Source of the DNA: Chlorobiota bacterium
GTDB lineage: Bacteria > Bacteroidota > Ignavibacteria > Kapaibacteriales > NICIL-2
Assembly (NCBI GenBank): GCA_026416585.1
Contig: JAOAEV010000072.1
Location: 1-54,540, forward strand
Direction of reading: 5' to 3'
Length of the DNA: 54,540 bases
The notes beneath the pieces are model-generated. The model worked only from the letters and a program-made list of their open reading frames with translations. It searched no databases and had not been told where the DNA came from. The translations under genes and the position numbers were made by a program. How positions within the stretch are numbered: the first letter of the stretch is position 1; each line of letters opens with the position of its first letter. Below are positions 37,108 to 53,314 of this stretch, piece by piece.

Positions 37108-37131
37108 TGATGAACACTTGTGGCAAGTCCC

Positions 37132-38418
37132 ATGAGCGACAATACACAGATTCATACAATTTCCAAACTCGACCGAGTTCGCACTCTTCGCCAGGAAAAA
37201 ATCTACAGGGAGTTGCTCGATCGCGATGCGACTGTCCTGTTTGATGACCCGCTGGAAAACGATATGGTCCTCAACATGGGACCGCAGCACCCAGCGACGC
37301 ATGGTGTGCTACGAGTGTTGCTGCGCCTCGACGGTGAAACAGTGATCAAATGCGTGCCAGAGCTTGGCTATCTGCATCGCGGTTATGAAAAACTTGCGGA
37401 GAACTGCACGTATGTCGAGTTCATTCCCCATACAGATCGACTTGATTATTTGGCACCGATGTCGAACAATGTCGGTATTGCACTCGCCATTGAAAACGCG
37501 ATGGGTATCGAAGCACCACCGCGTGCACAATGGATTCGAACGCTGGTTTGCGAACTTGCGCGGGTATCCTCGCATTTGCTCGCAACGGGTGCAACTGCCA
37601 TGGATGTGGGTGCTCTAACGGTTTTTCTCTGGACGTTCGCCGAACGAGAGAAGCTCTACGACATTTTCGAATTGATCTGTGGAGCGCGGTTTACGACCAG
37701 TTACACGCGCGTCGGTGGTGTCGCCAACGACATTCCCGATTGGGTGCTTGCTAAAATCCGTCATTGGGCAGATCAATTTGTCGAGCAACTATCAGATGTC
37801 GAAAAAATGCTCTGCCGTAATCGGATTTTTATTGACCGGATGGCTGGGGTGGGGTACTGCTCAGCGGAAAAAGCGATTGCACTGGGATTGACCGGTCCAG
37901 TTCTGCGGGCGTCAGGTGTCGAGCGTGACCTACGACGCGATCAGCCATATTTACTCTATGATCGGTTAGAGTTCGATGTCATCGTCGAAAATGATTGCGA
38001 TTGCTATGCGCGATTCATGGTTCGCTTGCACGAAATGCGTGAGTCTATCCGAATCATCCATCAACTATTGGATCGCCCTGTCCCAGGCGACGTAAAACTC
38101 AACGACCCGGTTCATGTGACGCCACGCAAGTACGAAATCTACACCAAAATGGAAGAACTGATAGCTGACTTCATGATTATCAACTTCGGGCCGCCAGCCC
38201 CGCCGGGTGAAACCTATACAGCAATCGAATCGCCAAAAGGTGAGCTGGGGTTTTTCATTGTTGCAGATGGAACAGGATATCCGTGGAAATTAAAAATCCG
38301 TTCTCCATCAGCTGCGAACTTGCAAGCCATGTCGCATATGGCAGAAGGCTCGATGGTTGCTGATATTGTTGCAATCATCGGGGGAATTGATCCAGTTATG
38401 GGTGAAGCCGATAAGTAA
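37132..38418 (+). CDS. nuoD: NADH-quinone oxidoreductase subunit D
   Basis: 428 aa. It has the 49-kDa subunit motifs: LNMGPQHPATHGVLRVLL, LGYLHRGYEKLAEN, and the end DIVAIIGGIDPVMGEADK. Quinone-site residues corresponding to the conserved His and Tyr of the family are H57 (HPATHG) and Y106 (DRLDYL), spaced 49 as in characterised complex I. It belongs to the hydrophilic arm of complex I at the membrane interface. ATG 37132 is preferred to an in-frame TTG at 37120. No other nuo gene is beside it, which is unusual because nuoD normally follows nuoC. The next gene starts inside its stop codon. Confidence 0.94.
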   Translation: MSDNTQIHTISKLDRVRTLRQEKIYRELLDRDATVLFDDPLENDMVLNMGPQHPATHGVLRVLLRLDGETVIKCVPELGYLHRGYEKLAENCTYVEFIPHTDRLDYLAPMSNNVGIALAIENAMGIEAPPRAQWIRTLVCELARVSSHLLATGATAMDVGALTVFLWTFAEREKLYDIFELICGARFTTSYTRVGGVANDIPDWVLAKIRHWADQFVEQLSDVEKMLCRNRIFIDRMAGVGYCSAEKAIALGLTGPVLRASGVERDLRRDQPYLLYDRLEFDVIVENDCDCYARFMVRLHEMRESIRIIHQLLDRPVPGDVKLNDPVHVTPRKYEIYTKMEELIADFMIINFGPPAPPGETYTAIESPKGELGFFIVADGTGYPWKLKIRSPSAANLQAMSHMAEGSMVADIVAIIGGIDPVMGEADK

Positions 38419-39029
38419 TGAGTCAACTCACGACTGCTCATCTACTCGGTACGCCAGAACGGCGCGACAAAATTCTACATATGCTCGAGCGACGCCAGCC
38501 GACACTGACTGTGGTGCTCGAGAATGTTCACGATCCACATAATGTCTCTGCTGTCATTCGTTCGTGTGATGCTGTTGGAGTGCTTGATGTACACCTTGTT
38601 TATACTGGCAGACAACGATTCCCCACATTAGGGGAGCGCTCGAGCGCAAGTGCACGCAAATGGGTCCGTTTGGTTGAACACCGAAGTATCGAAGAGTGCT
38701 ATCAAACACTCCGTGCACACGGTATGACGGTCGTCACCACATGCTTAGGGCGTCCTGCCGGTAATCTGTACTCGTTTGATTTGACAAAACCAGTTGCTAT
38801 TGCCTTCGGCAACGAACATGCTGGACTCAGTGATGAAGCCTGTGCTGGCGCTGACGCCAACTTGATCATTCCGCAAATGGGGATGGTCCAAAGCCTCAAC
38901 ATCTCTGTCGCATGTGCCGTTGTGCTGTTTGAAGCACTGCGGCAACGACTTGTGTGCGGGATGTACGACCAGTCGCAGCTATCTGCCGAGCAGATTGCGG
39001 ACCTCCTGGTGTATTTCCTTTCGCTGTAG
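38418..39029 (+). CDS. trmH: tRNA (guanosine-2'-O-)-methyltransferase, SpoU/TrmH family
   Basis: 203 aa with the three SPOUT motifs: ENVHDPHNVSAVIRSCDAVGV (motif 1), AIAFGNEHAGLSDEA (motif 2) and IPQMGMVQSLNISVACAVVLFEAL (motif 3). TrmH uses S-adenosylmethionine to methylate the ribose of G18 in the D loop of tRNA. The length and the absence of an N-terminal L30e domain fit TrmH rather than RlmB. The start overlaps the nuoD stop (TAATG), and the cytochrome b-like gene begins 2 nt after its own stop, so these three are translationally linked. Confidence 0.92.
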   Translation: MSQLTTAHLLGTPERRDKILHMLERRQPTLTVVLENVHDPHNVSAVIRSCDAVGVLDVHLVYTGRQRFPTLGERSSASARKWVRLVEHRSIEECYQTLRAHGMTVVTTCLGRPAGNLYSFDLTKPVAIAFGNEHAGLSDEACAGADANLIIPQMGMVQSLNISVACAVVLFEALRQRLVCGMYDQSQLSAEQIADLLVYFLSL

Positions 39030-39031
39030 TG

Positions 39032-40012
39032 ATGGAATCGAATCGCTGGCGTTTGTGGACCGGGACATTGGTCGTCAGTAGTCTTTTGGTAGCTATTATT
39101 AGTGGTGCTGTTCTATCCCTCTTCTATCAACCGTCGAGTTTAACGGGCAATCGGCATTTGTATCGCGCAGCCACAAGCATACTCGACAGCAGCGGTGACA
39201 CGCTCTTTCGCAAGGGAGAGATCGTTTGGCTCGACGTTTTGCCGCCACATAACGGAAAGTTGATTCCAATTGGTGATAGTAGCATACCATCGAGTGCAGC
39301 ATTGGTCTCGCATGAAGCAATGCTGGACCATCATGAGGGTGTGATGATGGTATCAGTTCACCGTGTTGCTGCATCAGTGCTTATCGCCAGCCTCGCTGCG
39401 TTCGCTGCAAGTGCAGTTATACGAGGATATCGCTGGTATTCACGGGATGGATTTGTATTGTTGATACTCATCGCAGCAATGGCGACAGCATGGATTGGTA
39501 CAACATTGCCTGCCGACAGCCGAGGCTTAGATGCCTATGCTGTTGGTCGAGCGTTTCTTGTAGATAATTTGCCGATTGCCGGTGATGTCATTGCCGCAAT
39601 TCTGCCAATTAAACACAACGCCGCAAGACTTTTTTCGTTGCATGCCGTATGGCTTGCACCGATACTGGCGATAGCGACGGTATTTGTCCTTTCTCCTCGC
39701 ACGCTTCAGGTCGAGAGCCTCACAGTTGGTATCGGTGCTCTTGCAATTGTAGTTACTGGATGGGGAGCCATGCTGCTTGGTGGGCATGAAATGTCAGGAG
39801 CAGTAAGTATGCCGGTTTGGCATCTTACAGTCGTGTATTTGCTGCTGCAGGCATTGCCAATGGATGTGACAATGGCAATCGTGTTGATGTGGTGGTGTAG
39901 TGTGTTCATTGCGGGTACAAGCCATGTGCGTTGGGTGCGAAGAGCGGGTGCGATACTCATCGTTAGTTGGTTCATTGCTGGTGCACTCATTGCTCAATTC
40001 AAGGCATTGTAG
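39032..40012 (+). CDS. Cytochrome b6-like membrane protein retaining one heme ligand pair
   Basis: A 326-aa integral membrane protein with about eight hydrophobic segments. The first 220 residues align in order with the cytochrome b/b6 N-terminal domain: IISGAVLSLFYQPS (20-35), SVHRVAAS (108-115), WIGTTLPADSRGLDAYAVGR (154-173), DNLPIAGDVI (178-187) and ARLFSLHAVWLAP (198-210). Cytochrome b has two histidines 14-15 residues apart in each of helices B and D. Here only H110 and H204 remain, the pair that binds the low-potential heme, while the partner positions are F124 and F218/V219. A long loop (36-107) replaces the usual short connection. The last ~105 residues hold four more helices without a PEWY motif. 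It could be a mono-heme quinone-reactive cytochrome; that is inference. Confidence 0.68.
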   Translation: MESNRWRLWTGTLVVSSLLVAIISGAVLSLFYQPSSLTGNRHLYRAATSILDSSGDTLFRKGEIVWLDVLPPHNGKLIPIGDSSIPSSAALVSHEAMLDHHEGVMMVSVHRVAASVLIASLAAFAASAVIRGYRWYSRDGFVLLILIAAMATAWIGTTLPADSRGLDAYAVGRAFLVDNLPIAGDVIAAILPIKHNAARLFSLHAVWLAPILAIATVFVLSPRTLQVESLTVGIGALAIVVTGWGAMLLGGHEMSGAVSMPVWHLTVVYLLLQALPMDVTMAIVLMWWCSVFIAGTSHVRWVRRAGAILIVSWFIAGALIAQFKAL

Positions 40013-49178: not shown

Positions 49179-49222
49179 CATTCAATATGCATGCAAGTCG
49201 AACATTTCAAGGACAGAGTCGA

Positions 49223-52200
49223 ATGAAAACACGCATTATCATCGTAGCGTTTTTGTTGGTTGCTGGTGGGTGGATAATTTCTCTGCCAGCTAAGGACATC
49301 GATCGCACCAAAGCAAAAGATCGTAAGGGTGCGACACTCCAACAAGCGCAATTCAACGATTTACGCAGAAATACAATCAGCAAGTTTGACTTTTACGTGA
49401 CCAATTACGGAATACTTTTCCTCAATGTTGCTCGTAACCAAGGTGGGGGGTTCTGGCCGCGTGGCTCCACGAATGAGTACGCATTTGGTGGTGGGGTGTG
49501 GTTCGGAGCGATTAAATATGTCGGTGGAGAGCCGCGGAAAATGTGTGTTATTGGGTATAATCCCAATTCCGGCATTTCGTGGATGACACCTGGCTCGATC
49601 GATGACGGCGATCTCGGCGATCGTTCTCAGGAGGCGATACTAAAAAATCGCGTGTACATGTCCACAGATTTTGTGCGGGTGACCGGTGCACCACGTAATT
49701 CCGCAGATGGGCCTAATTGGCCAATTTGGGATGTCAATCCAAATGACACGATGGTTAACGTGGCGATTGTCAAAAATCGCTCGCGTTACGTGGGGTACTA
49801 CGTCAATGATACAGCAAGCCGTAACTATACAAGGTATCCGAAGGGTCCAGCATTCATCTCGCAAGAAGATATCGTTTGCGTGTATAAAGACACCGATCTC
49901 CGTGCATACGAGATTGGTGAAGATCAGGCCCGTGCGTTGGGTTATCCATTGCGCATTCAGGTTGAGCAGACGATGTATACATGGGGTTTTGGCGAGTACG
50001 GACACTTTATCTTCATGCGTTTCAATATCATCAATCGCTCTCAGGATACACTGTATCAGTGCTGGATGGCACCAGCTATGGACTTCGATTTAGCGGCATT
50101 TCCCAACTATGCTGGTGGGGCTGCCAATGACCGTGTGAGCTACTACTTTCAGGATACGACACTTAATCTCGCATACCAGTGGTCGAATACCGATCGCGGT
50201 GAACGTGGCAAAGGGTTCGGCTACATCGGTATGTCCTTTTTAGAAAGTCCTGCTGTTGACGACCAGTTCTTCATTCGTAAAGATCGCGGATATTACCCAC
50301 TGCCGGAACAGCTTGGTTTGCGGACGTTCCGGAATTGGATTATTCAAAATGATCCCAATACCGACGTGCAGCGTTATGATTTCATGGCAGCAGGTGTTCG
50401 AGAAGGCGATACTGGTCCTGGAGATAAACGTTTTCTCATGGCAACAGGACCATTCAATATGTTGCCGGGAGACACTGCTCGCGTCGTTGTGGGAGTCATT
50501 CTTGCTCCTCCGATCAAGGAAGAAGCTGATGGTACCGAAGAAGACTTGGTCAATCTCGTGCGACGCACTCGTTTTGCGCAGCGTGTCTACGACAATGGGT
50601 TTGCTGCCCCGCAACCGCCTGAAGCCCCAAAGGTAAGTTGGGAGCCACTCAATCATGCGATTATTGTCAAGTGGGATACGACCAGTTATGCTTCATATGA
50701 CCGCGAAGAGCGTGGAATGGACATCATGGGATTTCGCATTTTTCGCTCACGTGTACCGACGCAAGACACCTTCGATGTAGATCTTCGCTCGCCTACAGCG
50801 GATTACCCGGGCGGACGCAGCCCATTTGGATGGAAGCTTATCGCAGAGTGGCGGGTCCCGTCTCCGTTCTGGACGACAGCTATACTGTCTGATAGTAGCG
50901 ATATCAACAGTACGCGCTACCCGTGGATACGTATCTTCCCGCAAGTCAACAAAGCATCGCTGCGTTTGCTCTATCCCAGTTTGCTGAATGCAACTGAAAT
51001 CACCAATGATAGCGTTATGATTGTTCGACGAATTCCGAACACCGTCACGGAACCGTGGCGCTCATTCTGGACCGCTATCATTCCACGAGGCACTATCAGC
51101 TCACAAAACCGATATGATACCTTGACGTTGGGTAAGATTACTATTCTTCCCAATGGTCAAATACCGACCCTCCCAACGTCGGCAAACGATACAACAACGA
51201 TGAATCAAGCGATGCAAAATCTCTGGTATCAAATTGCCCGGGGTACTGCTCGCATCCAATGGATGGCAGATGATTGGGTTGATGCTCAGTGGGCACGAGC
51301 TATCATTCGTCGTTATCTCGACAGCGTCACCAATAACCGAACACTCCTTGATGTTGGTGATGACAACAGAGACGGTGTGATCTCCCAAGATGAAGACCTG
51401 CGCCGCCGAGAAGAAATTCTCAATAGCGTGGACTACTATTACCGAGTCCTTGCGTTCGATGAAGGTGACTACTTGCAGGGTACACCCATCAAGAACAGTG
51501 TCGCTATCGACAACGTGAACGTTGTTCAGGCATTTGCACTTGCACCTGGTCCGTACCGTGCACCGTCGGTATCGGTGACGGAGGACCGCAATAAACTTGG
51601 AGGATTATACAATTTCCGCCTTGTCCCAAAGGATGCAGCACGCTTTGCACAATTGTTCGGTGGTCATCAAATCGAGCTCGAGTTCCAGCCGGCAGCCAGT
51701 GGAACAACGTTTTACACCTGCATTGATACGATCTGGAATAACTCAGCCCAAATGCTCAAGGGTTTCTACGGCAACCGACTCATCGTGCGTGATAAGACGA
51801 CAGGGCGTCAGCTCGGTGACTACACCGTGTTCTATGAGCCAGCAGACTGTCTTTTTGACAATTTCTTTTCGGACGTTGCGATGGTGTTCGTTTCGCCGAA
51901 TACTGTATCGGAAATTAGCAATCTTTGCGATCAAGCGCAGAATAACCCTGCCAGTTTCGTGTATCCCTATAGTACCGAGGTGACGTATCGTGGTGGTACA
52001 TGGAATACAGACAAACCGTGCTTAGGGAATACCCGGACACTCGAGGGGACATTCGCGATATCGTTTGACTATTTCATTCAGCAGTACGGTGGAATTATCC
52101 GGCCGCATCGGATCGAAAAGCTAAACAGCTCGGCGAATACGTTCCTCGAATTTCGTCCGCTACGACGCACGGACATTGCCAGGCTCGAGCCCGTCGCAAT

Positions 52201-53314
52201 AAATTATGCTCAAGGACTCTACGAGCGGTTCAACAATGGTGCAGCACTGTACGAATTAGAATTTTTACCTGGCGGAGTCGAAACAATCACTACGCAATTT
52301 CTGCGAGCGCGGGGTTTCCAATTCGATACGATTACCAAAACGTTCGACGTTTCTTATCTCAATGTTCGGCTCCGAAATATCCGCACGTATCGCCGACCTG
52401 TTGCTGAAAGTGATTCCATCGAGGTCTCTTACCCGGTTGAAGTACCATCTTATTCCGTCTCGTTGCCAATCGACCTTGTGGACTACAGTCAGACTGGAAC
52501 GTCAGATGTGTACACGTATCCTCATCCACGTGCAGTGCCGGTTGGTGCGTTCAATCTTTCAGCGTATGCGTGGCTCAATGGGCGATATAGCAAAAGTAAT
52601 TTCACCTCAAAAGAGACTGCAACTCAACGTAATCAACAAGCCGGTTGTGCCAATCGTGCATGTCCCGTGGGTACGCAGGGTCGGTACTATCTTTCGACAA
52701 TCACGCCGGAGGGGGATACTGTTGATTTTACGCATGCACTTCTTGTCGATGGTGGAACGTTCTGGCTTGATTTCGCAGGAAAAGGTGGTCGTCAAGGTGG
52801 TGCTATCGGTCGAGTTATACCGTATCCGCCCGATAGTGCAACTGCGACAGAAGATTTCAAACCTGGGGACAAGGTTCTCATCGAAATCATGGGTGGTCCA
52901 TTCGGCCTTCCACTACCAGGAGCGAAGGTAACATTTGCTGTATCGCCATCTGAAATTCCGCAAGAGCAATTGACCGACAGCGATCTGGAGCAGGTCTTGA
53001 TCGTGCCGAATCCGTATGTCATCACCCATGTTGGGCAAAAGTCATCTTACGATGCAAAGATTTACTTTACACGTCTTCCCAAAGAATGCACGATCAAGAT
53101 TTACACGGCGGCCGGTGATCTTATTCGCACGATACGTCATGTCGATCAAGACGGTACATTCCGCTATGGGATGGACGTGTGGGACCTTCTCAGTGATAAT
53201 CGCCAGCGTGTGGTGTCACAAGGCTTATTTGCAGTTATCGAAACGCCGAATGGCGCGCAGACAGTCAAGAAATTTGCTGTCGTTGTTGGTGGTGCTCGTA
53301 TTCTCGGTCGCTAA
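49223..53314 (+). CDS. Large secreted surface protein with FN3-like domain, EF-hand loop and C-terminal sorting-type domain
   Basis: A 1363-aa exported protein. The signal peptide (about 1-24) is preceded by a purine-rich AAGGACAGAG. There are no recognised catalytic motifs. Visible features are a FN3-like stretch (about 470-500, PPEAPKVSWEPLNHAIIVKWD followed by GFRIFRSR), a perfect EF-hand-type loop DDNRDGVISQDE at residues 713-724, and a C-terminal ~110-residue domain (VLIVPNPYVITH, KIYTAAGDLIRTI, SQGLFAVIETPNG). That domain resembles the T9SS/FlgD-like Ig sorting fold but ends with an extra VVVGGARILGR. It starts 44 nt after the TonB-type barrel gene and precedes a PorV-like gene by 24 nt, so the three probably form one surface complex or export route. 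Confidence 0.78.
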   Translation: MKTRIIIVAFLLVAGGWIISLPAKDIDRTKAKDRKGATLQQAQFNDLRRNTISKFDFYVTNYGILFLNVARNQGGGFWPRGSTNEYAFGGGVWFGAIKYVGGEPRKMCVIGYNPNSGISWMTPGSIDDGDLGDRSQEAILKNRVYMSTDFVRVTGAPRNSADGPNWPIWDVNPNDTMVNVAIVKNRSRYVGYYVNDTASRNYTRYPKGPAFISQEDIVCVYKDTDLRAYEIGEDQARALGYPLRIQVEQTMYTWGFGEYGHFIFMRFNIINRSQDTLYQCWMAPAMDFDLAAFPNYAGGAANDRVSYYFQDTTLNLAYQWSNTDRGERGKGFGYIGMSFLESPAVDDQFFIRKDRGYYPLPEQLGLRTFRNWIIQNDPNTDVQRYDFMAAGVREGDTGPGDKRFLMATGPFNMLPGDTARVVVGVILAPPIKEEADGTEEDLVNLVRRTRFAQRVYDNGFAAPQPPEAPKVSWEPLNHAIIVKWDTTSYASYDREERGMDIMGFRIFRSRVPTQDTFDVDLRSPTADYPGGRSPFGWKLIAEWRVPSPFWTTAILSDSSDINSTRYPWIRIFPQVNKASLRLLYPSLLNATEITNDSVMIVRRIPNTVTEPWRSFWTAIIPRGTISSQNRYDTLTLGKITILPNGQIPTLPTSANDTTTMNQAMQNLWYQIARGTARIQWMADDWVDAQWARAIIRRYLDSVTNNRTLLDVGDDNRDGVISQDEDLRRREEILNSVDYYYRVLAFDEGDYLQGTPIKNSVAIDNVNVVQAFALAPGPYRAPSVSVTEDRNKLGGLYNFRLVPKDAARFAQLFGGHQIELEFQPAASGTTFYTCIDTIWNNSAQMLKGFYGNRLIVRDKTTGRQLGDYTVFYEPADCLFDNFFSDVAMVFVSPNTVSEISNLCDQAQNNPASFVYPYSTEVTYRGGTWNTDKPCLGNTRTLEGTFAISFDYFIQQYGGIIRPHRIEKLNSSANTFLEFRPLRRTDIARLEPVAINYAQGLYERFNNGAALYELEFLPGGVETITTQFLRARGFQFDTITKTFDVSYLNVRLRNIRTYRRPVAESDSIEVSYPVEVPSYSVSLPIDLVDYSQTGTSDVYTYPHPRAVPVGAFNLSAYAWLNGRYSKSNFTSKETATQRNQQAGCANRACPVGTQGRYYLSTITPEGDTVDFTHALLVDGGTFWLDFAGKGGRQGGAIGRVIPYPPDSATATEDFKPGDKVLIEIMGGPFGLPLPGAKVTFAVSPSEIPQEQLTDSDLEQVLIVPNPYVITHVGQKSSYDAKIYFTRLPKECTIKIYTAAGDLIRTIRHVDQDGTFRYGMDVWDLLSDNRQRVVSQGLFAVIETPNGAQTVKKFAVVVGGARILGR

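Follow-up and report, generated by a model that had tools for sequence, protein, structure and literature searches.

An open reading frame at positions 39032 to 40012 (+ strand) of the window, by which we mean the whole 54,540-nucleotide stretch analyzed, encodes a 326-residue protein that the original prediction described as cytochrome b6-like but lacking the ligands of one of its two hemes. The Q-cycle depends on two b hemes that span the membrane, and their presence is treated as defining for both complex III and b6f. The question raised by this locus is what a protein of this kind is and how it could function with a single heme. Our analyses suggest, with good probability, that it belongs to a natural, order-wide Rieske/cytochrome b complex containing heme bL only, which would act as a Qo-only quinol oxidase without a Q-cycle and whose three-ligand relatives survive outside the order.

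Genomic setting and assignment to the cytochrome b fold

The frame is open over its full length and begins 2 bp after a SpoU/TrmH-type RNA methylase gene (38418 to 39029, + strand; Pfam SpoU_methylase, E=8e-35, and synteny). The start of the methylase gene in turn overlaps the last base of nuoD (37120 to 38418, + strand; PF00346, E=1.7e-107), the sole gene in the genome for the 49-kDa (quinone-site) subunit of complex I. nuoD is likely the head of a transcript that carries the methylase and cytochrome b genes. nuoD is not directly preceded by another nuo gene: just upstream of it is recR, on the opposite strand. The gene order nuoD–trmH–cytb–asnB recurs in congeners, and nuoD–trmH–cytb was also found in two further genera (genomes G007 and G006) of the same taxonomic family, f1. 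Persistence of the nuoD and trmH neighbors, raised in the original prediction as a point to check, thus held within f1 but not elsewhere: in the neighborhoods of the homologs from other families, linkage to nuoD was not seen. Further along the window, a frame at 49187 to 53314 (+ strand), downstream of a TonB-dependent-receptor-like gene, encodes a 1375-aa protein with no Pfam match at 1e-5.

Used alone, the protein matched Pfam Cytochrom_B_N_2 at E=4e-4, below the cut-off; a PDB search with the single sequence gave no meaningful match, and a scan of the contigs of the genomes with the single protein as query gave none. A profile of its protein family (36 members) found solved bc1/b6f cytochromes b in the PDB at E=1e-42, with the alignment extending through the subunit IV part; b6 chains were matched at 5e-36 and PetD (subunit IV) chains down to E=8e-7. 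The profile of the protein's own genus alone was too diverged to match canonical cytochrome b significantly, and the predicted identity of the own-genus proteins as cytochromes b rests on intermediate sequences and synteny. An AlphaFold2 model calculated from three sequences was weak (pLDDT 49), and Foldseek ranked bc1 cytochrome b first with this model, with no match at E<0.001; the heme geometry and heme content discussed below are those predicted from the alignment. Together, the profile matches indicate that the frame encodes a full-length cytochrome b in which helices A to G, corresponding to b6 plus subunit IV, form one chain. The four extra C-terminal helices described in the original prediction are present but are the ordinary E, ef, F and G (subunit IV) part and not an unrelated addition. 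With both bH histidines missing (see below), the protein is best described as related to the canonical di-heme cytochromes b by descent, in a derived form, without being one of them.

Heme ligands, the A-B loop and the Qo motif

The heme ligand positions were read from an alignment of 48 family members with 24 canonical relatives drawn from this order and its class. H110 (codon 39359 to 39361, + strand) and H204 (codon 39641 to 39643, + strand) coincide with the heme bL (bp) ligands of helices B and D, as had been proposed, and both columns are His in all 48 members of the family and in all 24 canonical sequences. The second histidines are indeed missing: F124 (codon 39401 to 39403, + strand) stands at +14 in helix B and F218–V219 (codons 39683 to 39688, + strand) at +14/+15 in helix D, and the F124 and V219 columns are His in 24/24 canonical relatives and in 0/48 family members. 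No helix B His was found from +12 to +17 in the 47 family members in which it was sought. The glycines on the bL side, G25 and G156, are kept in 48/48 family members, and the bH-packing Gly at positions 11 and 142 of our protein is present in 24/24 canonical relatives versus 4/48 and 7/48, respectively, in the family. The alignment thus argues that the bH site has been lost as a whole, and not just one of its residues.

A bH heme bound through other ligands (Lys, Met or Cys) would make the protein di-heme with unusual ligation. Lys can replace His at bH in Rhodobacter capsulatus, in which the H212K variant has functional His-Lys ligation (PMC4807273), and it is for this reason that the absence of a conserved substitute matters. 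Nine sequences contain some H, K, M or C in both bH windows. However, these residues lie off the ligand positions and are unconserved, the protein studied here has no such substitute in its bH windows, and the family alignment contains no conserved residue able to replace the bH ligands. The packing glycines, moreover, have mostly disappeared along with both ligands. We therefore regard continued binding of a bH heme as very unlikely.

The enlarged loop between helices A and B (approximately residues 37 to 104; 39140 to 39343, + strand), expected on the periplasmic side and predicted to contain short strands, proved to be real. The distance from G25 to H110 is 85 residues, close to the family median of 86, compared to 35 in canonical relatives. 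The four-His relative L165 has a long A-B loop as well, which places loop enlargement before loss of the bH ligands. The claim that the protein lacks PEWY was, on the other hand, wrong in substance, the motif being kept in part. P261-V-W263-H264 (39812 to 39823, + strand) occupies the place of PEWY in the Qo-site E-F loop, with the Pro conserved in 45/46 and the Trp in 46/46 aligned family members. The family thus keeps the Qo loop as P-x-W-[YFH]: relatives read PEWY, PAWY or PAWF, while our protein reads PVWH, and the Glu and Tyr of PEWY occur in only 9/46 and 18/46 sequences of the family alignment. Within the own genus, in which the motif is most eroded, the PEWY Glu is gone and the Arg preceding the helix B ligand is mostly lost. 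As the Rieske gene is also unlinked there (see below), the Qo chemistry of this genus may be altered further.

Distribution and descent of the family

Orthologs were found in four of five congeners, at 38 to 43% identity; two congeners with the gene are Chlorobiota bacterium SKW43 (JAOAGY010000032.1) and Candidatus Kapabacteria bacterium KatS3mg039 (BPHJ01000001.1), both near relatives. A profile made from the first homologs matched 59 of 123 genomes of the order; the reading frames of the matched genomes were extracted, and the heme ligand positions were read in each. In 48 genomes, from families f1, f2, f6, f7, f8 and f9, both bL histidines are present with no bH pair. Of the f3 genomes read, eight have a canonical cytochrome b with four His and a ninth has an unusual four-His protein of 906 aa; in two f4 genomes the cytochrome b is a different one, of 497 aa, with the four His intact. 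The 906-aa frame (L129, genome G101), which has a four-His cytochrome b part and adjoins a Rieske gene, is unsure in its tree placement. A phylum-wide sample yielded no family member of comparable strength from outside the order; the single match obtained there was a short-loop frame of 378 aa, characterized by length and loop only.

In a tree from which fragments were removed, as were a few sequences that are complete but divergent or odd (among them the mono-heme L126 and L036 and the four-His L129), a branch supported at 98% SH-aLRT separates the mono-heme sequences from the others. A fuller tree requires one extra change because the long-branch L129 groups with the mono-heme sequences. Just outside the mono-heme branch lie sequences of f13, another family of the same class. 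Two of these (L163 from G135 and L164 from G153; 472 to 477 aa), which adjoin a Rieske gene, have three of the four ligands, with the helix B bH His changed to Trp and the helix D one kept; one f13 sequence has all four His, and the A-B loop is enlarged in all three. By sequence, the three-His pair has the look of a step on the way to full loss; independent loss is a possible alternative.

For 13 pairs of relatives dN/dS was 0.10 to 0.31, the own-genus pairs being too diverged for the measure, and the genes are therefore under purifying selection. Ligand loss and the fast divergence within the genus might be taken as signs of a decaying gene or pseudogene without function. That reading is essentially refuted already by the intact frames, the bL histidines in 48/48 members, the dN/dS values of relatives, the synteny and the co-loss with the Rieske gene described below. 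Nor is this copy a lone degraded gene among homologs with both histidine pairs, the outcome that would have counted against the original prediction: the bH His is absent from all 48 homologs found, in which the substitutions are fixed. Every sequence test that could be run supported the proposal of a mono-heme, quinone-interacting remnant of the bc/b6f fold.

The probable Rieske partner and the proposed route of the second electron

The mono-heme cytochrome b gene of families f2 and f8 is immediately preceded by a Rieske gene, which often overlaps or abuts the cytochrome b start. Where the two are unlinked, as in f9 and our own family f1, a similar Rieske gene is found elsewhere in the genome, here on contig C96 (L040:8106-8528). 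The four cluster ligands, both disulfide cysteines, the PP motif and the twin arginine are invariant among 20 aligned members of this predicted TAT-type bc/b6f Rieske [2Fe-2S] protein. This type occurs in 47 of 48 mono-heme genomes, including all f1 genomes with the mono-heme protein, versus 1 of the 64 genomes of the order that lack cytochrome b (Fisher p=2e-29, uncorrected for relatedness, with a presence cut-off of E<1e-24 that was chosen after the list was seen). The 48th mono-heme genome (G065) has a split Rieske gene next to that for cytochrome b, and the sole Rieske-positive genome without cytochrome b (G002) is 86% complete. The f2 genus g13 (G017, G024, G054, G058, G063 and G064) has neither the mono-heme cytochrome b nor the matching Rieske gene, an apparent co-loss that is also seen in the single-contig genome G017. 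Linkage and co-occurrence support, but do not prove, assembly of the two proteins into one complex. No gene for cytochrome c1/f or another acceptor was found linked to the mono-heme genes when their surroundings were searched.

We consider it reasonably likely that these genes encode a Rieske/cytochrome b complex from which heme bH and the quinone-reducing Qi half are permanently gone and in which the quinol-oxidizing Qo half is retained, with the second electron returning through Qo; heme occupancy, complex formation and this route are what we infer from the data. The remaining half would consist of heme bL, the P-x-W Qo loop and the TAT-type Rieske protein. Quinol would be oxidized at Qo, with the first electron passing to the Rieske protein and the second parked on heme bL as a transient store. 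Because there would be no bH to take it across the membrane, and the path from bL to the n-side would be missing, the bL electron would go back through Qo to the re-oxidized Rieske centre. Both electrons would then end up on a periplasmic acceptor of high potential; proton release would be scalar, and there would be no Q-cycle.

The main rival is a shortened Q-cycle, in which a quinone in or near the vacated bH pocket takes the second electron from bL and charge transfer across the membrane survives. The bL and bH edges are ∼12 Å apart in bc1 structures, so direct tunneling from bL to a quinone in that space is possible, and the whole helix bundle has been kept under purifying selection. However, in the family alignment the n-side of helices A, B and D is devoid of strongly conserved polar or charged residues, and the engineered bH-less bc1 of R. 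capsulatus lacks antimycin-sensitive cytochrome c reduction (PMC4330944). We consider a shortened Q-cycle unlikely.

It is quite unlikely that the protein stands outside Rieske electron transfer altogether, serving instead in the membrane as a quinol sensor or structural protein, perhaps attached to complex I. The conserved nuoD–trmH–cytb order of the f1 genera, with nuoD in single copy, and the eroded Qo motif of our own genus would suit such a role, and a quinol sensor linked to complex I is possible in our own family. Nevertheless, the bL ligands are invariant and P-x-W is nearly so, all f1 genomes with the protein have the Rieske gene, and the link to nuoD is confined to f1.

Loss of bH would have been allowed, on the Qo-only reading that we favor, if an ACIII-type complex beside a caa3 oxidase could carry most of the quinol:cytochrome c traffic. 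Each of the 18 mono-heme genomes tested contains a single NrfD-family match together with one or more COX1 genes. The clusters read in G000, G004, G008 and G015 look like complete ACIII clusters (pentaheme ActA-like protein, ActB-like protein with a 4Fe-4S motif, ActC, ActD, monoheme ActE and ActF), and in G008 and G015 oxidase genes lie alongside. For a Bacteroidetes/Chlorobi bacterium discussed alongside Kapabacteria, ACIII but no complex III has been listed (PMC6338057). We also considered ACIII as a feature separating mono-heme from four-His genomes and rejected it, since nrfD is present in all 29 comparison genomes too. ACIII would thus be a permissive condition and not the cause of bH loss.

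Comparison with known systems

No report of a natural mono-heme form of cytochrome b was found in the open-license PubMed Central literature. If the proposal is true, the family is an experiment done by nature, both on what keeps Qo from short-circuiting and on the stepwise dismantling of an energy-coupling complex once ACIII is available. The family shares with the cytochromes b of bc1 and b6-f (PF00033/PF13631 plus PF00032) the A-to-G fold order, the bL ligands and bL-side glycines, the P-x-W Qo loop and a Rieske partner. It differs from them in that both bH ligands are absent, the bH-side glycines mostly gone and the A-B loop usually enlarged, with no linked cytochrome c1/f and with our own member below Pfam cut-offs. 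The canonical Rieske/cytochrome b/multiheme cytochrome c operons of f3 and the class contain homologous genes in the same Rieske–cytb order but, unlike the mono-heme loci, encode four ligands and a short A-B loop, often with a multiheme cytochrome c (8 to 11 CXXCH) downstream. ACIII (ActABCDEF), found in the same genomes, is likewise a quinol oxidase that feeds periplasmic carriers; however, it is an unrelated NrfD/molybdopterin-like complex without Rieske protein or cytochrome b. In the engineered bH knockout of R. capsulatus bc1, H212N, bL is present and reducible and bH is absent (PMC4330944). Whereas H212N is one point mutation in a Q-cycle enzyme, with impaired electron transfer, the loss in the mono-heme family appears to be natural and fixed, and to have taken the pocket as well.
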